Assembly: GCF_023208015.1 (NCBI RefSeq)
Contig: NZ_CP051627.1
Span: 1,860,001 to 1,924,000 of the forward strand
Source: Thermobifida alba
Lineage (GTDB): Bacteria; Actinomycetota; Actinomycetes; Streptosporangiales; Streptosporangiaceae
DNA: 64,000 nt
Direction of reading: 5' to 3'
The notes beneath the pieces were generated by a model that made no database searches, was not told the origin of the DNA, and worked only from the letters and a program-made list of their open reading frames with translations. Shown here in pieces: positions 20,525 through 30,733 of the stretch. Both the position numbers and the translations under genes were made by a program. The stretch's first letter is position 1. Each line of letters starts with the position of its first letter.

Positions 20525-21778
20525 TCACTCCCGGGGACGGGGGGCGGGCGGGGTGCGGGAGAAGTCCCGGGAGCCGGGGACCAGGGCGGCGGCCGCGGGC
20601 GCCAGGAAGCACACGGCGGCGCAGGCCGCCAGGACCGCCGGGGCCCCCACCAGGTCGGCCGCGGGGGCGATGAGGGCCAGGCCCACCGGGGCGAGCCCGT
20701 AGGACAGCAGGAAGTCCAGTGAGGAGACGCGGGCGAGCCGCCCCGGGTCGATCTCGCGCTGCGCGGCGGTGAACCAGGGGACGTTGAACAGTTCGACGCC
20801 CACTCCCGCGAGGACGTAGGCGGCGACCACCGCCGCGGGGTGCACGGGGGCCAGCAGGCTCAGCGGGGCGAAGCCGTAGCAGGCGAGTCCGGCGAGCGCG
20901 GTCCACCCCTGGGCGCGGGGCCTCCAGCGCGCCATGAGCAGCGCCCCGGCGAGCGCTCCGGCGGTGTAGCCGGTCAGCGCCGCGGCCAGCACCGCCTCGG
21001 TTCCGTAGTGCCGTCCGCTGGCTTCGGGGAGCAGGACCCCGGTCGCCGAGTAGCCGGTGGTGATGACGGCGGCGAGCGCGCCCAGTCCGGCGAGGAACCA
21101 GGGGTGGCGGCGGGCCTCGCGCAGCCCGTCGAGGAACTCGGTGTGAAAGGGGTCCCGCCGGTGCGGCGGCGTCGGGGCGGCGGCCCCGCGCGGCGGCAGC
21201 AGTGCCGCGGCCAGCCAGAGCGCACCGGTGCCGACCACCAGGACCGCGGTCCCGGCGACGGTGGCCAGCAGCGCGGCCACTCCGGGGCCCAGCAGTGTGG
21301 TGACCCGCACGGCCAGCGTCATCGCGGCGTTGGCCTGCTGGCGCCGCGGCTCGTCGACGACCTCGCGGGTGAGGGCCTGGAAGGCGGGGCGGCAGGCCCC
21401 CTGCCCCATCCCCACCACGGCCGCGGCGGCGGCCGTGACGGCGGCGGAGCCGCCCAGGCCGAGCGCGAGGACCGGGGAGGCCAGCGCCGCCGCTCCCCCG
21501 GCCCAGGCCACGACCGCGCGGCGGGAGTAGCGGTCGGCCAGGACCCCGGCGACGGGGACGGCGGCGAGGAAGCCGGCGGTGCGGACGGCGAGCACCAGGC
21601 CGAGGCCCGCGGCGGTGAGGGAGCCTTCGAGCACGGCCAGGCCGAGGACAAACGGCAGCGCCCAGGTGGCCAGTCCCGAGGCGACCGTGCCCGCCCACAG
21701 GCGCAGGAAGGCGGCGTCGCGCAGCAGACCGGTCCGTTCCGCGGCGGGCGCGGCCGGGGGCGAGGGCGGGGAGGACAC
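20525..21778 (-). CDS. MFS transporter, probable metallophore exporter
   Basis: 417 residues with about 12 hydrophobic segments and the MFS motif GVLADRYSRRAV between helices 2 and 3. It resembles the EntS-like/DHA3 branch that exports siderophores. GTG 21778 has AAGGAG upstream. The role is inferred from context: a Fur-family box (21828-21842) lies 50 bases before the start, and the divergent operon encodes a small-molecule pathway under a matching box. It is therefore the best candidate to export the product. Confidence 0.8.
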   Translation of the reverse strand: MSSPPSPPAAPAAERTGLLRDAAFLRLWAGTVASGLATWALPFVLGLAVLEGSLTAAGLGLVLAVRTAGFLAAVPVAGVLADRYSRRAVVAWAGGAAALASPVLALGLGGSAAVTAAAAAVVGMGQGACRPAFQALTREVVDEPRRQQANAAMTLAVRVTTLLGPGVAALLATVAGTAVLVVGTGALWLAAALLPPRGAAAPTPPHRRDPFHTEFLDGLREARRHPWFLAGLGALAAVITTGYSATGVLLPEASGRHYGTEAVLAAALTGYTAGALAGALLMARWRPRAQGWTALAGLACYGFAPLSLLAPVHPAAVVAAYVLAGVGVELFNVPWFTAAQREIDPGRLARVSSLDFLLSYGLAPVGLALIAPAADLVGAPAVLAACAAVCFLAPAAAALVPGSRDFSRTPPAPRPRE

Positions 21779-21827
21779 GGATCATCATCTCCTTGAACGC
21801 GGAGGGAGGAACGGCCACCCACTGTAA

Positions 21828-21842
21828 TGAAAACGATTATCA
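21828..21842 (-). promoter_or_regulatory. Fur-family (Zur-like) box for the MFS exporter
   Basis: TGAAAACGATTATCA, an imperfect 15-bp palindrome close to the actinomycete Zur consensus TGAAAATGATTTTCA. It lies about 50 bases before the leftward MFS gene. Under metal sufficiency a Zur-type repressor would block transcription here. Confidence 0.7.
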
Positions 21843-21900
21843 GTCGCACCCCGAACTCCACCCGGCGAGACGGACGGGACTTCGCCGCCGGGACTAGGAA

Positions 21901-21915
21901 TGAAAATGATTTTCA
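21901..21915 (+). promoter_or_regulatory. Perfect Zur-like box for the biosynthetic operon
   Basis: TGAAAATGATTTTCA, a perfect 15-bp palindrome identical to the Zur consensus known from Streptomyces. It is followed by an AT-rich TTTATAGTG that may be the -10 region. It lies 130 bases before the methyltransferase start. Confidence 0.8.
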
Positions 21916-22045
21916 TTTATAGTGTGACCGCCTCCGGGCAAACCCGGACAGACGGCGCGTTCGGCGTCTCCCGTCGACCGCCCCGGAGGAGCATCGCGCC
22001 CGCCGACCCGCGGCCCCACGGGCCGCAGCACCGAAAGGACCCCGC

Positions 22046-22765
22046 GTGGACCACCCCCTGGTCGCACAACTACCCCCGCCCCTGCCCGCGGACCGCGTCG
22101 TCGCGATCAACCGGCCCAGGGGCGACCTGGGATCCCACCGCTCCTACACGTGGCACGGCTGGACCTTCGACGTGCCGCCCGGCGTCTTCCTGCCCGGCGC
22201 CACCAGCCGGATGATCCACCAGCGCGTCCTCGACGGCGACATCGACGTCCGCGGCCGGCGCTACGCCGCCATGGGGGTCGGCCTGGGCGTCGAGGCCGTG
22301 GCCGCCGGACTGCGCGGAGCCCGCGAGGTCTACGCTGTCGACGTGCACGCCGACAGCGTCGCCACGGCCGCGCGCCACTACGCCCGCATCGTCGGCGACC
22401 GACCCGCGACCAGGTTCGTCCCCGTCGTCGCCGACCTCTTCGACGGCTTCCCCGAGGGCGTCCGGCTGGACGTCGTCACCTTCAACCCGCCCGCCGTCAG
22501 CCAGCCCGTCAGCGACGACCCCGACGTGGTGCGCAACGTGTGCGTGGGAGCCGCACTGCTGGAGACGTTCTTCGCCCAACTCGCCGACCGGGACCTGCTG
22601 GCCCCCGGAGCGGAGGTGTTCGTCATCGTCTCCAACACCGCCGACCTGCGCCGCATCCTCCACGCCGCCCTCGACCGCGGCTTCACCCCGCACGTCCACC
22701 ACCGGCACGACTGGGGCGACGGCGTGGTGACCCTGCTGTTCCGCCTCACCCGGGAGGACGCGTGA
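22046..22765 (+). CDS. SAM-dependent methyltransferase of the metal-responsive operon
   Basis: 239 residues. Class I methyltransferase fold: SAM loop AMGVGLGVEAVAAGL near 75-90, acidic ribose ligand in VYAVDVHADSV, and FNPPAVSQP, an [N/F]PP-type catalytic loop as in amino- or amide-N-methyltransferases. First gene of a four-gene operon; its TGA overlaps the GTG of the next gene by 4 bases. A role in N- or O-methylating a small metal-binding product is inferred only from position. The start is the ATG-equivalent GTG at 22046 after GAAAGGA. Confidence 0.8.
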   Translation: MDHPLVAQLPPPLPADRVVAINRPRGDLGSHRSYTWHGWTFDVPPGVFLPGATSRMIHQRVLDGDIDVRGRRYAAMGVGLGVEAVAAGLRGAREVYAVDVHADSVATAARHYARIVGDRPATRFVPVVADLFDGFPEGVRLDVVTFNPPAVSQPVSDDPDVVRNVCVGAALLETFFAQLADRDLLAPGAEVFVIVSNTADLRRILHAALDRGFTPHVHHRHDWGDGVVTLLFRLTREDA

Positions 22766-23568
22766 ACACCGTCGCCGACCTGTTCGACCGCGTGCTCGCC
22801 GAGACGGCCCCCGCCCCGGCCGCACACACCGCCACCAGCGTGTTCTGGCTGCACCACGGAACCCGGCTGGCCGGCGGGGACACCACCTACCTCAACCACT
22901 ACGTCCTGGTCCGCTCGGGCGGCTCCTTCGGCGCGTGCGCCTTCGAACCCGGCGAGGTGGACCCGGCCGTGTGCGCCGAGGCGTCCGGCCGCCCCCTCGC
23001 CGACCTGATGCGCACCGGGCCGCTCCCGCTGCGCCTGGCCGCCCTCGACGCCTGCCTGGCCCGGTCCCTGCCCCACCGCGACGACCCCCGCGCCGAGGCG
23101 GTGCCGCTGCCCGCGGGCACCCCCGAGCGGCGCGCCCTGGCCCGCGACGCCGCCGTCGCCGGACTCCTCGACCTCGCACCGGGCGCGAAGGTGGCCCTGA
23201 TCGGCGTCGTCAACCCCCTGGTCGCGGCGATCCGCGACCGCGGCGGCGAGTGCCTGCCCTGCGACCGCAACCTGCGCGCCACCCGGTGGGGCGACCCCGT
23301 CACCCCCGACATGGACGAGGTCCTCGACGCCGCCGACGCCGTCGTCGCCACCGGCATGACCTTGGGCAACGGCACCTTCGACGAGATCCTGCGCCGCTGC
23401 CGCCGCCGCGGGACGCCGCTGGTGGTCTACGCCCAGAGCGGCGCCGCCGCGGCCCGCGAGTTCCTCGGTTCGGGCGTCACCGCCCTGTCCGCCGAACCCT
23501 TCCCCTTCTCCCAGTTCAGCGCGGAGCCCACGGTGCTCTACCGCTACCGGGCGGAGCAGGGGGCATGA
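22762..23568 (+). CDS. DUF4213/DUF364 protein (putative heavy-metal chelation family)
   Basis: 268 residues from GTG 22762, overlapping the previous stop. An N-terminal DUF4213-like region is followed by the Rossmann-like DUF364 domain (about 140-268) with ALIGVVNPLVAAI, DAVVATGMTLGNGTFDEIL and VVYAQSGAA, the latter matching the family's T-G-x-T-x-x-N-G-T and GPSA positions. DUF364 proteins are annotated as putative heavy-metal-chelating and their chemistry is unsettled. In this operon it could assemble, load or recycle the metal ligand. Its ATGA junction couples it to the kinase gene. Confidence 0.8.
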   Translation: MNTVADLFDRVLAETAPAPAAHTATSVFWLHHGTRLAGGDTTYLNHYVLVRSGGSFGACAFEPGEVDPAVCAEASGRPLADLMRTGPLPLRLAALDACLARSLPHRDDPRAEAVPLPAGTPERRALARDAAVAGLLDLAPGAKVALIGVVNPLVAAIRDRGGECLPCDRNLRATRWGDPVTPDMDEVLDAADAVVATGMTLGNGTFDEILRRCRRRGTPLVVYAQSGAAAAREFLGSGVTALSAEPFPFSQFSAEPTVLYRYRAEQGA

Positions 23569-24566
23569 CGCCCGGAAGCGGGCTGGCGCCCTGCCACCAC
23601 GGAGAGATCCTCCAGGGCGTCTTCGCCGACGGGGAGGGCAGGCCCTGCCGGGGCCTGGTCACCCTCCCCCTGGCCGAGCCCGTCACCCGCGCCGTGTTCG
23701 TCCCGCTGCCCGGCGCCCCCGCCCACCGGATCGCGGTCGCCCCCGCCGGGCGCGCCAAGGCCGCGCGGGCCGCCCGGCTGGCCGTCGCCGAGTGCGCCCG
23801 CCGCTCGGGGCTCGCGGCGTGCGGGGGGCGGCTGGGGCTGAGCGGCGGTGTGCCCGTCGGCCTGGGTATGGGCTCCTCCACCAGCGACGTCATCGCCACC
23901 GTCCGCGCGGTCGCGGCGAGTTTCGCCGTGGCGCTGTCCCCGCGGGAGGTGGCGCGGATCGCGGTGCGCGCCGAGACCGCCGCCGACCCGACCATGCTGG
24001 ACGCGCGGCCGGTGCTGTTCGCGCAGCGTGAGGGACGCGTCCTGGAGGACCTCGGTCCGGCCCTGCCCGCCTGCGTCGTCGTGGGCTGCCTGACCGGCGG
24101 CGGGCGCCCGGTCAGCACGCTCGCGCTGCCCGCGGTCCGCTACGGCGCGGCGGACCTGGCCGCCTTCGAGGAGCTGCGCGCGCTGCTGCGGCGGGCGGTC
24201 GCCGACGCCGACCCCGTGCTGCTGGGCCGCGTCAGCACCGAGAGCGCCCGCCGCAACCAGAGCGTGGTGCCCAAACCCGAGTTCGGCCTCCTGGAGGAGG
24301 CCGCCCGCCGCGGCGGCGGCGCCGGGGTGCAGGTCGCCCACAGCGGCAACGTCGCCGGTGTGCTCTTCGACGCCGCGGCCCCGGACCTGACCGAGCGCGT
24401 GCGCGACTGCGTGCGCCGCCTGCGGGACAGCGGCGTCCCCGTGACCCGGATCTTTCGGACCCCCTCTGGTGTGACGGAGCGTGAGTATGGACAACCACAT
24501 CTCCGAGGCGATCGGCAGACCGGACCTGGTGGACCTCGGCAACGGACTCGTCTGCCTGCGGTTTGA
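23565..24566 (+). CDS. GHMP-family kinase, PduX-like
   Basis: 333 residues from ATG 23565 (overlaps previous stop). N-terminal APCHHGEILQG corresponds to the C-G-E-[LI]-x-Q-G of PduX, the L-threonine kinase of cobalamin assembly. The GHMP ATP-binding loop is GGVPVGLGMGSSTSD (94-108), and the C-terminal GVQVAHSGNVAGVLFD is conserved. The inferred reaction is ATP-dependent phosphorylation of a hydroxy-amino acid (Thr, Ser or similar). No cobalamin genes are near, so the phospho-amino acid most likely feeds the PLP enzyme next door. The last ~35 residues overlap the next gene out of frame and look non-conserved. A broken second copy lies at 30034-30733. Confidence 0.82.
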   Translation: MTPGSGLAPCHHGEILQGVFADGEGRPCRGLVTLPLAEPVTRAVFVPLPGAPAHRIAVAPAGRAKAARAARLAVAECARRSGLAACGGRLGLSGGVPVGLGMGSSTSDVIATVRAVAASFAVALSPREVARIAVRAETAADPTMLDARPVLFAQREGRVLEDLGPALPACVVVGCLTGGGRPVSTLALPAVRYGAADLAAFEELRALLRRAVADADPVLLGRVSTESARRNQSVVPKPEFGLLEEAARRGGGAGVQVAHSGNVAGVLFDAAAPDLTERVRDCVRRLRDSGVPVTRIFRTPSGVTEREYGQPHLRGDRQTGPGGPRQRTRLPAV

Positions 24567-25539
24567 GACGATGAAGGCGCTGTCGGCGCTGGCCGCGGTG
24601 CGCCACCTGTGCGACACGGGTGCCGTGCGGCCCGGCGACACCCTGATCGACAGCTCCAGCGGCATCTACGCCTACGCCCTCGCCCTGGCCTGCCACCGGT
24701 ACGGGCTGCGCTGCCACATCGTCGGCTCCACGACCGTCGACCACACGCTCCGCGTCCAACTGGCCGTCCTGGGGGCGCACCTGGAGCAGATGGAGCCGTG
24801 CTCGGACCTGAAGCTGGACCAGAGCCGCCGGGTCCGCAGGATCAAGGAGATCCTCCGCGACCACCCCGACTACCACTGGATGCGCCAGTACCACGACCGC
24901 GTCCACTACCTGGGCTACCGCGCCGTCGCCGAGATGGTCGCCGAACAGCTCGGCGGCGCCCGGCTGACCGTCGTCGGCGGCGTCGGCTCGGGGTCGTCCA
25001 CCGGGGCGCTCGCCCACTACCTGCGCGGGCACGCCCCCGACACCGTCCTCGTCGGCGTGCAGCCGTTCGGCAGCGTCACCTTCGGCTGCGAGCACGTCGC
25101 CGACCCCGAGATCATCATCGCCGGGATCGGCAGCTCGATCCCCTTCGGCAACGTCGACCACACCCTCTACGACACCCTCCACTGGGTGGGGTTCGGGGCC
25201 GCCCTCGCCGGAAGCGTGGACCTGCTGCGGCGGCACGCGGTCTTCGCCGGGCTGTCCGCCGGGGCCGCCTACCTCGCCGCGCGCTGGGAGTCGCGGCGCG
25301 CCCCGGAGCGGACCGTGGTGTTCGTCGCGGCCGACACCGGGCACCGCTACGTGGACTCGGTGTTCGCCCGACACCGCGAGGCGGCCGACGTCGACTCGCT
25401 CGCACCCCACCGGGCGGCCGACCCGTCCCAGCTCGCGCTGCCGTGGTCGCGGATGGAGTGGGGCCGCGCCCCGGCTCCTGAGGCGGCGCGGTGGCCCGGC
25501 GACGCCGCCGAGGTGCCCGGGGCGGCGCCGGTCGCCTAG
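24487..25539 (+). CDS. Cysteine-synthase-like PLP enzyme (SbnA-type context)
   Basis: 350 residues from ATG 24487 (a GTG two codons earlier is possible). Fold-type II PLP enzyme: probable Schiff-base Lys30 in RFETMKALSA, substrate loop DSSSGIYAYA where cysteine synthases have TSGNTG, and phosphate loop VGGVGSGSSTGAL. The Asn of the substrate loop is replaced, so it is not an ordinary O-acetylserine sulfhydrylase. By analogy with SbnA of staphyloferrin B, which uses O-phosphoserine to build a diamino acid precursor, I infer beta-replacement on the kinase product. It overlaps the kinase gene by about 80 bases. Confidence 0.78.
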   Translation: MDNHISEAIGRPDLVDLGNGLVCLRFETMKALSALAAVRHLCDTGAVRPGDTLIDSSSGIYAYALALACHRYGLRCHIVGSTTVDHTLRVQLAVLGAHLEQMEPCSDLKLDQSRRVRRIKEILRDHPDYHWMRQYHDRVHYLGYRAVAEMVAEQLGGARLTVVGGVGSGSSTGALAHYLRGHAPDTVLVGVQPFGSVTFGCEHVADPEIIIAGIGSSIPFGNVDHTLYDTLHWVGFGAALAGSVDLLRRHAVFAGLSAGAAYLAARWESRRAPERTVVFVAADTGHRYVDSVFARHREAADVDSLAPHRAADPSQLALPWSRMEWGRAPAPEAARWPGDAAEVPGAAPVA

Positions 25540-25541
25540 GG

Positions 25542-25577
25542 GGCGGGGCGGTCCCGCGCGGGCGGGGCCGCCCCGCC
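25542..25577. terminator. Hairpin between the convergent biosynthesis and import operons
   Basis: Perfect 10-bp GC arms (25542-25551 / 25568-25577) directly after the PLP-enzyme stop and before the convergent binding-protein gene. Likely terminator for both operons. Confidence 0.65.
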
Positions 25578-25584
25578 GTCCTCC

Positions 25585-26601
25585 TCACTGCCCGTGCTGG
25601 CCGTGGAGGTCGCGCAGGTACTCGGCGAACTTCTCCAGGCCGTCGATGTTGCGCGGCCCGCTGATGCCCTCGTTGTAGTCCAGGACGAAGAAGGCGTCGT
25701 CGACCACCGCGGGCAGTTCCGCCGTGACCGGCGAGGACTTCAGGAACTCGATCTTGTCCTCGGCGGGCTGGTCCCCGTAGTCGAGGATGATGACCACCTC
25801 GGGGCGCGCCTCGACGACCGCCTCCCAGCTCGCCTGGAACCACCGCTCCTCGACGTCGCCGAAGATGTTCTCGCCGCCCGCGAAGCGGATGATGTCGTTG
25901 GGGGGCACCTGGCTTCCGGCGGTGAAGGGCTGGTCGGTGCCCGAGTCGTAGAGGAACACCGGGACCGGGTCGCCCTCGGGTGCCTGCTCGCGCACCGCCG
26001 CGACCCGCTCCCGGAAGTCGGCGACGACCTCGTCGGCCCGCTCCTCCACGCCGAAGATCGCGCCCAGGCGCTCCAGGTCGGTGTAGAGGGCCTCGAACGG
26101 CTCGACCCGCTCGGGGAAGCCCGGGTAGTTGTAGCAGGACTCGGTGTGCATGAAGCTCTGGATGCCGAGCCTGTCGAGGATCTCGGGGGTGATGCCGCGC
26201 TGGTCGCTGAAGCCGGAGTTCCATCCGGCCACGACGAAGTCGGCCTCGGCGTCCACCACCAGCTCGCGGTTGAGCAGGTCGTCGCTGAGGAACTCCACCG
26301 CGGCGTAATCCTCGGCCCACGGCGACTCCTCGACCGGCGGGTTGGCCGGGGGCATGACGTAGCCGAGCACGTGGTCGGTCAGGCCCAGGACGAACATCTT
26401 GTCGGCGCTGCCGCCCTCGTAGACGACCGCGCGCTGCGGCGTGGTGTACTCGACCTCCTCCCCGCACCGCCGCACGGTGACGGTGCGCACCTCGTCGGCG
26501 GCCTCGATGCGGGCGCCGCAGCCGCTCAGCAGCAGGACGCCGACGGCGGGGAGCAGCGCCGCCCGCAGCGGGCGCCGGTCCGTTCCCGGTGTCGCGGTCA
26601 T
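25585..26601 (-). CDS. ABC importer substrate-binding lipoprotein (FecB/BtuF type)
   Basis: 338 residues. Signal peptide with lipobox LLLSGC (Cys28), then a periplasmic-binding fold of the helical-backbone class III used for siderophores, heme and cobalamin (FVLGLTDHVLGYVMPP, FVVAGWNSGFSDQRG, ARPEVVIILDYGD). Last gene of the three-gene importer operon; its ATG overlaps the ATPase stop (ATGA). Its ligand is probably the metal complex of the molecule made by the convergent operon. The C-terminus HGQHGQ is His-containing. Confidence 0.87.
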   Translation of the reverse strand: MTATPGTDRRPLRAALLPAVGVLLLSGCGARIEAADEVRTVTVRRCGEEVEYTTPQRAVVYEGGSADKMFVLGLTDHVLGYVMPPANPPVEESPWAEDYAAVEFLSDDLLNRELVVDAEADFVVAGWNSGFSDQRGITPEILDRLGIQSFMHTESCYNYPGFPERVEPFEALYTDLERLGAIFGVEERADEVVADFRERVAAVREQAPEGDPVPVFLYDSGTDQPFTAGSQVPPNDIIRFAGGENIFGDVEERWFQASWEAVVEARPEVVIILDYGDQPAEDKIEFLKSSPVTAELPAVVDDAFFVLDYNEGISGPRNIDGLEKFAEYLRDLHGQHGQ

Positions 26602-27389
26602 GGGTTCCTCTTCTCAGTGTCGTCGGGCAGGAGCGTGTAGAGCAGTTGCGGGGCGCCGGTCAGCGGATGGGGGACCACCTCGGCCTCCACTCCGAAGACC
26701 TCGCGGACCAGCGGGGGCGTCAGGATCTCGCCGGGCGTGCCCGAGGCGACCAGGCGCCCCTCGGCGAGCACCCCGATCCGGTCGCAGGCCGCCGCGGCCA
26801 GGTTGAGGTCGTGCAGCACGACCAGGACGGTGGTCCCGGTGCGGCGCAGCAGCGACAGCAGGCCGACCTGGTGGCGGACGTCGAGGTGGTTGGTGGGCTC
26901 GTCCAGGACGAGCACCCCGGGCTCCTGGACGAGCGCGCGGGCCAGCAGCACCCGCTGGCGCTCCCCGCCGGACAGCTCCAGGACGCCGCGGCGGGCCAGG
27001 TGGGCCACGTCCATGCGTTCCATCGCCCACCGGCACAGCCGCCGTTCGCGCGCGTCGAGCGGCCGGTTGCCGCGCTGGTGGGGGGTGCGGCCCAGGGCGA
27101 CGACCTCCTCGACCGTGAAGTCGAGGTCGGTGCCGTTCTCCTGGGTCAGCGCGGCCACCTTCCGGGCGCTCTCCCGCAGCCTCAGGGAGGACAGGTCGGC
27201 GCCGTCCAGCCACACCGCTCCCCCGCTGGGCCGCAGCGCCCGGTAGACGCAGCGCAGCACCGTCGACTTGCCCGAGCCGTTGGGTCCCACCAGGCCGACC
27301 ACCTGACCCTCGGGCACGTCCAGCGACAGCTCGCGCACGATCCGCCTGCCGGCGACGTCCACGGAGACCCCGTCGATGCGCAGTTCCAC
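26598..27389 (-). CDS. ABC importer ATPase (FecE/FepC type)
   Basis: 263 residues from GTG 27389, which overlaps the permease stop by one base. Walker A GPNGSGKST, Q-loop LTQENGT, signature LSGGERQR, Walker B VLVLDEPTNHLD, and switch His in VVLHDLN are all intact. Energises the FecCD-type permease in the cytoplasm. The tight stop/start overlaps on both sides show translational coupling within the operon. Confidence 0.92.
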   Translation of the reverse strand: MELRIDGVSVDVAGRRIVRELSLDVPEGQVVGLVGPNGSGKSTVLRCVYRALRPSGGAVWLDGADLSSLRLRESARKVAALTQENGTDLDFTVEEVVALGRTPHQRGNRPLDARERRLCRWAMERMDVAHLARRGVLELSGGERQRVLLARALVQEPGVLVLDEPTNHLDVRHQVGLLSLLRRTGTTVLVVLHDLNLAAAACDRIGVLAEGRLVASGTPGEILTPPLVREVFGVEAEVVPHPLTGAPQLLYTLLPDDTEKRNP

Positions 27390-28522
27390 TACCGGCCTCC
27401 GAACAGGTAGGCCCTGCGGCGCATCAGCGCGACGAACACGGGAACGCCGACCAGCGCGGTGAGGACGCCGACGGGCAGTTCCCGGGGCGCGGCGAGCACC
27501 CGGGAGGCCAGGTCCACCCAGACCATGAGGACCGCGCCGACCAGCGGGGCGAGGGTGAGCACGCGCCGGTGCCCGGCCCCGGCGGTGATGCGCACGGCGT
27601 GCGGGACGACCAGTCCGACGAAGCCGATCACGCCGCTGACGGCGACCATCGCCCCGGTCATGGCCGCGGTGAGGACGAACAGGATCCGGCGCAGCCGGTC
27701 GGTGTCCACGCCCAGGCTCGCGGCGGTCTCGTCGCCCAGCGCCATGGCGTCGAGCGGGCGGCCGAGTCCGCGCAGGACGAGCACTCCGGCGACGACCACG
27801 GCCGTGACCGCGGGCAGCGCGCCCCAGGTGGCGGCCCCGAAGCCGCCCATCGTCCAGAACAGCACCGTGGCGGTGGCCTCGCTGTTGGGCGCGAGGTAGA
27901 CGATGACGCTCATGAGCGCCTGGAAGGCGAAGGACATCGCGACGCCGGTCAGCACCAGCCGCAGCGGACCCACCCCGGTCCGCGTGCGGGCGACGAGGTA
28001 GACCAGCAGCGTCGCCGCCGCCGCGCCGAGGAAGGCGCCCACCGAGACCGCATGGATCCCGAAGGCCGCGAGTCCCCCGGTGACGGTGACGGCGACCGCG
28101 CCCACGGAGGCGCCGGAGGAGACGCCGAGGACGAAGGGGTCGGCGACCGCGTTGCGGACCATCGCCTGCACGGCCACGCCCGCCGCGCCGAGTCCGGCGC
28201 CGACGACGGCGGCGAGCAGGACGCGGGGGGTGCGGATCTGCCAGACGATCTGGTAGCGCGGGACCTCGTCGGCTCCGATCGCTCCGCCGCTGAGCGCCGC
28301 CCACAGGTAGCGGGCCGTGTCCTCGGGCGGGACGACCGCCGCGCCCAGTCCGATCGCCGCGAGCACCGAGACCGCCAGGACGGCGGTGAGGACGGCGGCC
28401 GCGGCGGCGGTCTTGCACGCCGTCGTCGCGCGCCCGGGGGCGGGGCGGTGGGCCGGGTCGTCCGCGCGGTCGCGGTCCGGTGCGGGGGGAAGCGTCCCGG
28501 GCGGGGGGTTGGCGTGGCGCAC
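27389..28522 (-). CDS. ABC importer permease (FecCD/BtuC family)
   Basis: 377 residues, about ten membrane segments, with the FecCD marks IRTPRVLLAAVVGAGLGAAGVAVQ (in part), RNAVADPFVLGVSSGASVGA, LGVDTDRLRR and GVIGFVGLVVPHAVR. First gene of the importer operon; the third Zur-like box (28556-28570) lies about 35 bases before its start. It forms the homodimeric membrane channel with the ATPase and binding protein downstream. Substrate class: metal-ligand complexes. Confidence 0.92.
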   Translation of the reverse strand: MRHANPPPGTLPPAPDRDRADDPAHRPAPGRATTACKTAAAAAVLTAVLAVSVLAAIGLGAAVVPPEDTARYLWAALSGGAIGADEVPRYQIVWQIRTPRVLLAAVVGAGLGAAGVAVQAMVRNAVADPFVLGVSSGASVGAVAVTVTGGLAAFGIHAVSVGAFLGAAAATLLVYLVARTRTGVGPLRLVLTGVAMSFAFQALMSVIVYLAPNSEATATVLFWTMGGFGAATWGALPAVTAVVVAGVLVLRGLGRPLDAMALGDETAASLGVDTDRLRRILFVLTAAMTGAMVAVSGVIGFVGLVVPHAVRITAGAGHRRVLTLAPLVGAVLMVWVDLASRVLAAPRELPVGVLTALVGVPVFVALMRRRAYLFGGR

Positions 28523-28555
28523 TCCCGGTGCCTTTCCGTTGCGTACTTACGACAA

Positions 28556-28570
28556 TGGATATCGTTTTCA
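28556..28570 (-). promoter_or_regulatory. Zur-like box for the importer operon
   Basis: TGGATATCGTTTTCA (read on the other strand TGAAAACGATATCCA), one half-site intact and one with two changes relative to TGAAAATGATTTTCA. It sits in a short AT-rich stretch about 35 bases before the permease start, so the importer should respond to the same repressor as the exporter and biosynthesis genes. Confidence 0.65.
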
Positions 28571-28739
28571 AAATACCCTGCCGGACGGTTCCCCACAAAA
28601 CGGACCACGGTCGCGGGGCGTGGCCTGCGACGGAGGCGCGCCGACTCCGAGCGCGACGGGCCCCGGACGCACCGGCGGCCCCGTGGAGGTCACGGGGGCC
28701 GTCGGTGCGGGGCCGGTGGGCCGGGCGCGGGGCGGCGCG

Positions 28740-29994
28740 GACGCGCCGCGCCCGCCCGGTCGCGCGCACCGGCACCCGGGCGAAGGGCGCGGCGAGCGCG
28801 ACGAGCGCGGGCAGGACTGCCAGGGCGAGCACCGCGGGCAGGTAGGAGTCGGCCAGGTCCCGGCCGAGCGAGAGCAGCAGCGGCGCCACCGCGGTGGAGG
28901 CCGCCGCCACCGCCTGGGGCAGCCCGCGCAGCGACCCGATCACGCCGGTGCCGTAGTAGTGCGGGAACGCGACGGCCCCGACCGCCTTGGCACCGGAGGC
29001 GGCCGCGCCCAGCGTGACGCCGTAGAGCACCGCGGTGACCCCCGGCGACACCAGCGGCAGCATGGCCAGCGCCCCCGCCTGCAGCGCCATGGAGACGAAC
29101 AGGAGCAGCCTGGGGGAGAACCGGTCGGCGGCGGCGCTGAACAGGAACGACGCGGCGAGCCCGGCGACGGTCTGCGGCAGGAAGCCGACGGCCGCCTGCG
29201 CGGTGCTCAGCCCGCTCCCCCAGCAGCGCGATCTGGTGGAAGTACACCGCCGTGCTCACCAGTCCGCTGCAGGCGACCGCGCCGGTGACGACCCAGAACA
29301 TCGAAGTGCGCACGACGACGCGCAGCGGCCGCGTGGACCGCTCGGGCGACTCCCCCGCCGCGCCCCGACCGGCCCCCTCCCGCGCGGGGCGCACGCCGCG
29401 CAGTCCCCACAGGGCGACGGGCAGCACGACCGCCCAGACCAGTGCCGCCTCGGCGAGCACGGTCCAGCGCCATCCGTACTCCGCGACGACCCGCTCGCCT
29501 AGCAGGGGGACCAGCGAGATCCCGGCCGTCCCCACCGCGGTGGTCACCCCCAGCGCGGCGCCGCCCCCCGGACCACCGCCACGGCCACGGCGGTGGTGGC
29601 CACCAGCGCCATCCCGCCCTGGCCCATCGCGCGCACACCGACGAACGCCGCGGTCAGGCCGACCAGCTCCTGGACCGCGGCCAGCAGGGTCAAGAACGCG
29701 CCGAAGGCCACGGCGACCAGCGCCAGGACGGGGCGGACGCCGAACCGGTCGACCGCCCGGCCCAGCCAGGGCAGGACCAGCGCGCCGCTGAGCGTGCCGA
29801 CCAGGTAGGCGGTGGAGACCGCGGAGCGGCTGACGTCGAGGTCGGCGATGAGGTGGTCGATGAGGATCGAGATCCCGGCCGTCTGCCCGGGGCCGCTCAA
29901 CGCCAGGACGGCGGCGCACACGGCGACGACGGCGGCGCGGGGCGGCGGGCGGGGCGGAGGCGGGCTGCGCTTCGGTGTCGGCGCGCGGGGTCAG
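28740..29994 (-). pseudogene. Broken MFS transporter gene (MCT-like)
   Basis: MFS sequence is readable in pieces in different frames: ISILIDHLIADLDVSRSAVS and WLGRAVDRFGVRP (29544-29921), GVTTAVGTAGISLVPLL and VYFHQIALLGE (to about 29220), then LSTAQAAVGFLPQ and AFPHYYGTGVIGSLRG (to about 28740). The joins are a C6 run at 29564-29569 (one base short) and a position near 29205-29222. A good AAGGAGG lies at 30000-30006 but the codon after it is CTG, and a further frame change is needed before helix 1. No stop codon closes the last frame where the family ends. It is either decayed or sequenced with homopolymer errors. Confidence 0.75.
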
Positions 29995-30033
29995 GGGGAC
30001 CTCCTTCGTCGGGGCGGGCACGTGGACGGGCGC

Positions 30034-30733
30034 GGCGGCGCGCCGGTGGGCCTGGGCATGGGTTCTTCCACCAGTGACGTCATCGCGGCCGTGCGCGCGG
30101 TGGCGGCGTGCTTCGCCGTGGAGCTGTCCGCGCGGGAGGTGGCGCGGATCGCGGTGCGCGCCGAGACCGCGGCCGACCCGACCATGCTCGGGGAGCGTCC
30201 GGTGCTGTTCGCGCAGCGCGAGGGGCGCGTCCTGGAGGAGTTCGGCGCGGCCCTGCCCGCGAGCGTGGTGGTGGGCTGTCTGACCGGCGGGGGGGCGTGC
30301 GGTGGACACGCTGCGGCTGGCGCCCGTCCGCTACGGGGCGGCGGACCTGGCGGCGTTCGAGGAGCTGCGCGCGCTGCTGCGGCGGGCGGTGGCCGAGGCC
30401 GGCCCGGTGCTGCTGGGCCGGGTCGCCACCGAGAGTGCCCGGCGCAACCAGCGCGCCGTGCCCAAGCCGGAGCTGCCCGCGGTGGAGGAGGCGGCCCGCG
30501 GCAGCGGCGGCACGGGGGTGCAGGTCGCGCACAGCGGCAACGTGGCGGGTGTGCTCTTCGACGCCGCGGTGCCGGACCTGGCCGAGCGGGTGCGGGCGTG
30601 TGTGCGCCTGCTGCGGGGCCGCGGTGTGCCGGTGACCCGGGTCTTTCGGGTGCCCTCTCCTGCGGTGCCCGTCGGGCGGGGGTGTGCGGCGTCGGGGGTG
30701 CGTGGTCGGGCGGTGTCGGACGGGGCGCGGTGA
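30034..30733 (+). pseudogene. Truncated, frameshifted second copy of the PduX-like GHMP kinase gene
   Basis: Corresponds to residues ~95-end of the kinase at 23565-24566, with long stretches of near-identical DNA (for example the GGAGGTGGCGCGGATCGCGG block). It starts at GAPVGLGMGSSTSD; the N-terminal ~95 residues are missing, replaced by the 5' region of the opposing MFS gene. At 30289-30295 a run of seven G (six needed) shifts the frame; thereafter VDTLRLAPVRYGAADLA to VTRVFRVPS follows in the new frame. Recent duplication followed by truncation is the simplest reading. Confidence 0.85.

Follow-up and report, generated by a model that had tools for sequence, protein, structure and literature searches.

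What does the locus at positions 20525-28570 of the window (the whole stretch of 64,000 nucleotides of Thermobifida alba DNA analysed here) make, and which metal does it serve? An earlier note on this DNA had read it as a Zur-boxed set of genes for making, exporting and re-importing an NRPS-free metallophore. All eight genes of that reading were found where the note had placed them, namely an exporter gene, a four-gene biosynthetic operon and a three-gene importer operon (Table 1). The biosynthetic genes overlap, as had been claimed, by 4, 4 and 86 bases in gene order, and the importer genes by 4 and 1 bases. Pfam searches of the eight proteins confirm MFS_1, DUF364, GHMP_kinases_N, PALP, Peripla_BP_2, ABC_tran and FecCD, and the domain search of the same eight proteins found no NRPS or NIS-synthetase domain, in agreement with the proposed NRPS-free nature. 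No promoter emerged from a scan with the sigma-70 consensus, as is to be expected in a high-GC actinomycete. Taken together with the evidence below, we consider it quite probable that this is a Zur-controlled metallophore locus. The best explanation of its gene content is a complete, NRPS-independent system for an aminopolycarboxylate-type zincophore under Zur repression, in which the product, the metal and the chemistry of DUF364 are put forward as predictions.

Table 1 Genes and predicted regulatory boxes of the candidate metallophore locus (window coordinates)
Feature	Position	Strand	Evidence
MFS exporter, candidate metallophore efflux pump	20525..21778	-	MFS_1 1.1e-31
Zur-type box TGAAAACGATTATCA upstream of MFS gene	21828..21842	+	exact consensus
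Zur-type box TGAAAATGATTTTCA upstream of biosynthetic operon	21901..21915	+	exact consensus
Class I SAM methyltransferase, NPP motif, HemK/PrmA fold	22046..22765	+	Foldseek matches
DUF364 protein, enolase-N-like and Rossmann domains	22762..23568	+	PF04016 47.8 bits
GHMP kinase, L-threonine-kinase (PduX) branch	23565..24566	+	PF00288, hhalign
SbnA-like fold-type-II PLP enzyme, predicted C-N bond-forming beta-substitution	24481..25539	+	PALP 1.4e-32
Importer substrate-binding protein (SBP)	25585..26601	-	Peripla_BP_2 2.3e-20
Importer ATPase, FecE/BtuD type	26598..27389	-	ABC_tran
Importer permease, FecCD type	27389..28522	-	FecCD 7.3e-87
Weak Zur-type box TGAAAACGATATCCA upstream of importer operon	28556..28570	-	2 mismatches

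The promoter regions point to control by Zur. The Fur-family boxes before the exporter gene and the biosynthetic operon match TGANAANNNTTNTCA exactly, and matches with at most one mismatch number two in the window against 0.01 expected from shuffles. At up to two mismatches there are 4 matches against 1.58 expected, and the third box is not significant alone; it is supported by its position, 34 bp upstream of the permease gene, and by clear boxes upstream of the orthologous permease gene in three related loci (L031, L033 and L042). The claim of a box at each of three promoters thus stands for the two exact boxes and is likely for the third. A 7-1-7 box like TGaNAANNNTTNtCA also precedes znuA and znuC-znuB-zur in the same genome, which identifies the cluster boxes as Zur-type, and the motif agrees with published Streptomyces and actinobacterial Zur motifs (PMC5472717). 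Further Fur-type box matches in the genome (75726, 1022109, 1027405 and 2772738) were set aside, as they do not clearly precede zinc genes. Boxes are present in 13 of the 14 related genome-contig loci that hold a promoter, the box before the biosynthetic operon is conserved at orthologous promoters, and exact boxes occur 17 times in 265 kb and never in shuffles. In the Nocardiopsis locus L033, the cluster encloses a Zur-boxed operon encoding a CobW-like (CobW_C) protein with S18, L28 and S14. These observations support the prediction, made from motif identity, that the cluster is under Zur control, as the earlier note had proposed.

The gene set behaves as a movable unit whose parts are conserved together. 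The eight genes recur in rearranged order in Nocardiopsis, Streptomyces, Amycolatopsis, Actinorugispora and Actinopolyspora and nearly always carry Zur boxes there, and exporter, biosynthesis and importer genes are kept together at 53-84% identity across five genera and one plasmid; the neighbourhood survey thus found the set conserved with its transporter genes included. Among 395 genomes of the class, a close DUF364 occurs in 21, all of which also have the PLP enzyme, and in a second DUF364 clade a PLP enzyme is adjacent in 8/8 inspected loci, with a box in seven of them. Variant clusters have lost the kinase or the methyltransferase, or have swapped the importer type, while DUF364 and the PLP enzyme are kept. 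The methyltransferase is missing from some close loci (L038, L060 and L110) and is therefore not essential to the core. Importers alternate across loci between FecCD and SBP_bac_5/Dpp types, the two types found in known zincophore clusters (PMC7438024). Kinase and PLP pairs also occur in places that have neither metal transporters nor DUF364, in one case next to an NRPS, so the pair alone does not mean a metallophore.

Of the transporters in the window, the MFS protein matches the EntS model weakly and has an orthologue at 61-76% in 12 of 15 related loci, a lipobox (LLLSGC) is visible in the substrate-binding protein, and the importer ATPase matches FecE and F420-0 ABC models. No Pfam family matches the methyltransferase above its cut-off, although the protein carries an invariant FNPPAVS motif and its AlphaFold model (pLDDT 85.7) matches the folds of HemK2/N6AMT1 (HEMK2), PrmA and the carbamoyl N-methyltransferase 9l4q in Foldseek, which bears out its earlier assignment. 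The DUF364 protein exceeds the PF04016 gathering score (cut-off 23), has the enolase-N/Rossmann architecture and finds the DUF364 structures 3l5o and 3npg as its top Foldseek matches.

The kinase family aligns over the kinase core with an annotated L-threonine kinase (hhalign probability 98.4, E 4.8e-15, 29% identity) and with a BluB-neighbour kinase (E 1.2e-17). The description as PduX-like is thereby upheld at the level of sequence homology, from which L-threonine kinase activity is tentatively predicted. The best NCBIfam match of the PLP enzyme is SbnA (TIGR03945, 3e-39), but its 134.9 bits against a cut-off of 349.95 make it a relative and not a member. Its PLP lysine K32 (SbnA K47) is conserved, and the invariant R117 and Y137 align with SbnA R132 and Y152, which together with S185 have been named for O-phosphoserine recognition or binding (PMC12414870). 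The residue alignment places SbnA S185 at a Gly169 that is invariant in the PLP enzyme family, a point against the proposed function, and T186 at Ser170; the idea that Ser170 corresponds to the O-phosphoserine residue of SbnA was therefore abandoned.

Residue 170, in a loop of the PLP enzyme, is Ser in 36/36 kinase-linked loci and Thr in 24/24 kinase-less loci, several of the latter being called from only about 1.5 kb of flank. It is the sole column of 429 that matches kinase presence in all 60 loci. Both traits show 6 changes on the tree, and in an independent-pair test 5 pairs were supported, every one of them concordant (p 0.0625), with 6 pairs on the best tree. A Streptomyces plasmid locus (L150), which carries the kinase, an argininosuccinate lyase and an NRPS, again has Ser170 and is a 61st concordant locus. 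Thr occupies the equivalent position in SbnA (T186), OASS and CBS, enzymes that act on serine derivatives.

The pathway suggested by these features would begin with zinc shortage, when Zur would leave its boxes. The kinase would transfer phosphate to the hydroxyl group in the side chain of a hydroxy-amino acid, with L-threonine more likely than L-serine, and our confidence in threonine as the donor falls just short of even. By analogy with SbnA and with aspergillomarasmine A (AMA) synthase, the SbnA-like enzyme would eliminate the phosphate and add an amine as the nucleophile, for which aspartate, glutamate or another amino acid is the probable choice, to give an N-substituted 2,3-diaminobutyrate (or 2,3-diaminopropionate) that would already be an aminopolycarboxylate chelator. 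The methyltransferase would probably N-methylate this product, and DUF364, acting in the same substrate line, may either tailor it or process the returned metal complex. The MFS protein would export the chelator and the SBP/FecCD/ATPase importer would retrieve its zinc complex. We tentatively propose that DUF364 and the SbnA-like PLP enzyme mark an unnamed class of zincophore pathway under Zur, in which a PduX-type kinase would supply O-phospho-L-threonine, the Thr-to-Ser change would admit its methyl group and the product would be a threonine-derived, beta-methylated and N-methylated aminopolycarboxylate, with the kinase-less form giving a serine-derived analogue.

A zincophore built on 2,3-diaminopropionate is a serious but lesser possibility: the kinase would supply O-phospho-L-serine, as SbnI does, and Ser170 would tune the enzyme between phosphate and acetyl leaving groups rather than make room for a methyl. 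SbnA, the best-scoring characterised relative, indeed uses O-phospho-L-serine, for which S. aureus maintains a serine kinase of its own even though the phosphorylated pathway also supplies the compound (PMC12414870), and the kinase-less loci share their Thr with the loop of OASS, which uses OAS. SbnA, however, does so with Thr, not Ser, at the position-170 equivalent, and the kinase here has its relatives in the L-threonine kinase family. A kinase for O-phosphoserine, a normal metabolite, would also be redundant. DUF364, too, could plausibly lie outside biosynthesis, unloading or degrading the metal complex after its import into the cell, with kinase, PLP enzyme and methyltransferase sufficing for the chelator; we give this a minority weight. 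DUF364 genes elsewhere are widely linked to ABC importers (PMC2954201), and in the Tsukamurella locus L060 DUF364 directly follows the importer genes, whereas here it sits inside the overlapping biosynthetic operon and in the second clade directly beside the PLP gene.

That the metallophore serves Fe, Co, Ni, Cu or a broad spectrum of metals, and merely happens to be Zur-controlled, is unlikely. FecCD importers are mostly for iron siderophores, corrinoids or haem, and DUF364 genes elsewhere adjoin Fe, Mo, W or V transport genes (PMC2954201), but the boxes are shared with znuA and znuCB-zur, the Nocardiopsis cluster encloses the CobW-like/ribosomal zinc-sparing operon, and no DtxR/IdeR-type iron box was found in the window. 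We regard as very improbable that there is no metallophore at all and that an operon for an antibiotic precursor (2,3-diaminobutyrate) or for cobalamin salvage lies beside an unrelated importer. Such an arrangement is suggested by the plasmid locus L150, where kinase, PLP enzyme and argininosuccinate lyase adjoin an NRPS, by the role of PduX in cobalamin assembly and by the likeness of the importer to F420-0/B12-type ABC models. Yet the domain search of the eight proteins revealed nothing that belongs to a lyase, an NRPS or a cobalamin pathway, the genes for import, export and biosynthesis travel as a group across genera, Zur boxes are present, and the F420-0 importer models TIGR03868, 03873 and 03869 score below cut-off (174.2/392.4, 281.5/372.4 and 257.7/437.35 bits).

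To our knowledge, few bacterial zincophore pathways have been described. Searching the literature for DUF364 together with metallophore yielded no paper, and none describing this locus was found for DUF364, Zur, SbnA and zincophore combined. The locus may represent a compact and widely distributed zincophore route in actinomycetes with an undescribed enzyme combination. An enzymatic partner would be defined for DUF364, which is uncharacterised and has been suspected in metal chelation since 2010, and the choice of Ser or Thr at position 170 would be a one-residue rule predicting the activated substrate. Zinc-selective aminopolycarboxylates also attract applied interest, both for inhibiting metallo-beta-lactamases and as chelators that are biodegradable.

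Among known systems, [S,S]-EDDS synthesis needs a decarboxylation, for which this cluster holds no candidate. The EDDS of Amycolatopsis japonicum is nevertheless alike by description, being a Zur-controlled, NRPS-free actinobacterial zinc chelator (PMC6103462). The opine-like zincophores staphylopine and pseudopaline, the latter under Zur control, are likewise small and amino-acid-derived, with a dedicated exporter and a FecCD or Dpp-type importer (PMC7438024; PMC6103462); no opine dehydrogenase (CntM) or nicotianamine-synthase-like (CntL) domain was detected in the eight proteins. Staphyloferrin B (Staphylococcus aureus SbnA, SbnB and SbnI) also has a dedicated amino-acid kinase feeding an SbnA-like PLP enzyme, metal-starvation control, export and ABC re-import. 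It differs in its iron rather than zinc (Zur) control and its SbnI-type rather than GHMP/PduX-type kinase, and the eight genes here include no SbnB homologue or NIS synthetase but have DUF364 and a methyltransferase in addition, so that the earlier comparison holds for the SbnA-like step and is limited to it. AMA synthase, a single enzyme, joins O-phospho-L-Ser and L-Asp into a Zn2+-selective, Zn2+-sequestering aminopolycarboxylate (PMC8319579); its product is fungal, and the published description mentions neither a linked kinase, DUF364 or methyltransferase nor control by Zur. The 2,3-diamino-acid sets of peptide antibiotics share the kinase and PLP pair with Ser170 (plasmid locus L150), and in a gausemycin cluster a cysteine synthase and a lyase accompany a product that contains 2,3-diaminobutyrate (PMC12471526). 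Judged from the gausemycin cluster and from L150, the route here may parallel 2,3-diaminobutyrate biosynthesis. The lyase that would release the free diamino acid in those sets is missing here, which suggests that the adduct may itself be the chelator.

The proposal, first made from sequence alone, of an NRPS-free, Zur-controlled metallophore locus with its own exporter and importer is supported by the promoter boxes, by their linkage to the znu and zur genes and by conservation as a unit; product, metal and reactions are predicted. The eight genes described in the earlier note are all in place at 20525-28522 and form three transcription units (see table), with consecutive overlaps of 4, 4 and 86 bases in the plus-strand biosynthetic operon. 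The window also holds a broken second kinase copy (frame change near 30285; 80-82% identical in amino acids to residues 87-301 of the kinase), which is a duplication remnant of this cluster, and an MFS-type gene apparently broken by frame changes, with DNA 87% identical to that of a same-genus genome.

Coordinates of the locus, of boxes outside it and of further features (L, comparison loci or contig pieces; G000, source-genome coordinates)
Feature	Sequence	Position	Strand	Remark
MFS gene	window	20525-21778	minus	own unit
Operon: methyltransferase, DUF364, GHMP kinase, PLP enzyme	window	22046-25539	plus	
Importer operon: permease, ATPase, binding protein	window	28522-25585	minus	
MFS-type gene, broken	window	28690-30309	minus	matches L111 15097-16490
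Kinase copy, broken	window	30013-30658	plus	
Box upstream of znuC-znuB-zur	G000	198735		TGAAAACGATTGTCA
Box upstream of znuA	G000	2637321		TGACAATGATTTTCA
Fur-type box, NucS-like gene	L054	2739-2856 (G000 2772738)		TGAAAACGATTTTCA
Fur-type box, methyltransferase gene	L053	3110-3922 (G000 1022109)		
Fur-type box, methyltransferase gene	L029	13688-14483		

Two 15-bp boxes at the locus are exact copies of the actinobacterial Zur motif (2 found versus 0.01 expected), while the third, before the importer operon, carries two mismatches and is not significant on its own, so that the earlier claim of a box at all three promoters holds firmly for two of them. The same motif lies upstream of the znuC-znuB-zur operon, which is closed by one of the genes for the two FUR proteins encoded in the genome, and directly upstream of one of the two znuA genes; it fits both the Streptomyces coelicolor Zur motif and a motif from actinobacterial znuA genes (PMC5472717). 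A search of the 64-kb window for iron boxes gave no hit. These shared boxes, the published motif and the lack of an iron box make Zur the likely, sequence-predicted regulator. Elsewhere in the genome, a perfect Fur-type box lies about 100 bp upstream of a gene that by eye resembles the endonuclease NucS, and in two genera similar class I methyltransferase genes have Fur-type boxes 30-80 bp upstream, possibly marking a further Zur-regulated gene.

With the PLP enzyme as query against 84,980 species genomes, 15 loci were found in Nocardiopsis, Streptomyces, Amycolatopsis, Actinopolyspora and Actinorugispora. Seven hold the complete eight-gene set, as does a Streptomyces plasmid, three miss only the kinase or the methyltransferase, and the remainder lie at contig ends or have no importer nearby. 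The set thus stays together across five genera and one plasmid, at 53-84% identity and in several gene orders, and this constant membership despite changing order points to a functional unit. Of the 14 loci that include a promoter, 13 have Zur-type boxes ahead of their operons, with 17 exact boxes in 265 kb and none in shuffles. In Nocardiopsis flavescens, the cluster and a Zur-boxed operon are interleaved; this operon encodes ribosomal proteins S18, L28 and S14 (L28 and S14 assigned by eye from translation) together with a CobW_C protein, a kind of gene that appears in the S. coelicolor Zur regulon (PMC6103462).

Profile searches indicate that DUF364 and the PLP enzyme form the constant core. 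Of 395 genomes in the class, 21 have a close DUF364, and every one of these also has the PLP enzyme. In a second DUF364 clade (L100-L106 and L117), a more distant PLP enzyme adjoins DUF364 in 8/8 inspected loci, seven with a Zur-type box. L100, the one fully annotated, also encodes a LAL_C2 ATP-grasp enzyme (L-amino-acid-ligase type), an enolase-superfamily protein, an MFS protein, a methyltransferase and a Dpp-type importer including its binding protein; these clusters probably represent another metallophore pathway. Other variants have lost the kinase or methyltransferase or gained a PhyH dioxygenase, and some carry a Dpp-type importer in place of FecCD, FecCD and oligopeptide-type importers being the two reported for opine-like zincophore clusters (PMC7438024).

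The PLP enzyme is related to the SbnA family of staphyloferrin B synthesis but falls outside it. Its PLP lysine K32 is invariant, as are R117 and Y137, which align with two of the three SbnA residues named for O-phosphoserine binding; at the third, SbnA S185, it has glycine. At the next position, residue 170 (SbnA T186), the 36 loci with an adjacent kinase all have Ser and the 24 that lack one all have Thr; this is the only one of 429 alignment columns to separate them fully, and on the tree residue and kinase each change six times, always together. SbnA, OASS and CBS, which use serine derivatives, have Thr here; Ser170, lacking the side-chain methyl, would leave space for the additional methyl that O-phosphothreonine carries. 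O-Phosphoserine and O-acetylserine come from primary metabolism, which is not known to supply O-phosphothreonine outside cobalamin assembly; this would account for the need of a kinase in exactly the Ser170 enzymes.

Profile comparison links the GHMP kinase to L-threonine kinase (hhalign probability 98.4, E 4.8e-15) and to a BluB-neighbour kinase (E 1.2e-17). Locus L150 on a Streptomyces plasmid pairs the same kinase and PLP enzyme (Ser170) with an argininosuccinate lyase, adjoining an NRPS, the arrangement to be expected for 2,3-diamino acid supply. Such kinase/SbnA-like pairs without DUF364 occur there and on alphaproteobacterial plasmids (L062, L063, L064 and L065), several of them rhizobial, beside ATP-grasp, argininosuccinate-lyase-type or NRPS genes. 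Related GHMP kinases on Sinorhizobium (L151) and Roseibium (L152) plasmids neighbour nucleotidyltransferase, CDP-alcohol phosphatidyltransferase and asparagine-synthase-like genes, in what looks like an unrelated pathway.

An NPP motif is invariant in the methyltransferase, whose fold is HemK/PrmA-like and finds a carbamoyl N-methyltransferase among its top matches, so N-methylation is the likely predicted role. The DUF364 model (pLDDT 88) first matches the two DUF364 crystal structures, and a part in making metal chelators was proposed on the basis of genome context by Miller and colleagues (PMC2954201); the protein may either tailor the chelator or process the metal complex on its return.

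Our analysis adds the direct link between these boxes and znu and zur, the conservation of the locus as a unit, a DUF364-PLP core in several architectures, and the residue-170 rule tying kinase to PLP enzyme. Since the locus lacks an argininosuccinate lyase, the N-substituted adduct of the PLP enzyme is probably retained as the product. The same adduct type, made by aspergillomarasmine A synthase from O-phosphoserine and aspartate, was shown to be a Zn2+-selective chelator (PMC8319579). The locus would take its place among the aminopolycarboxylate-like zincophores, an already known kind.
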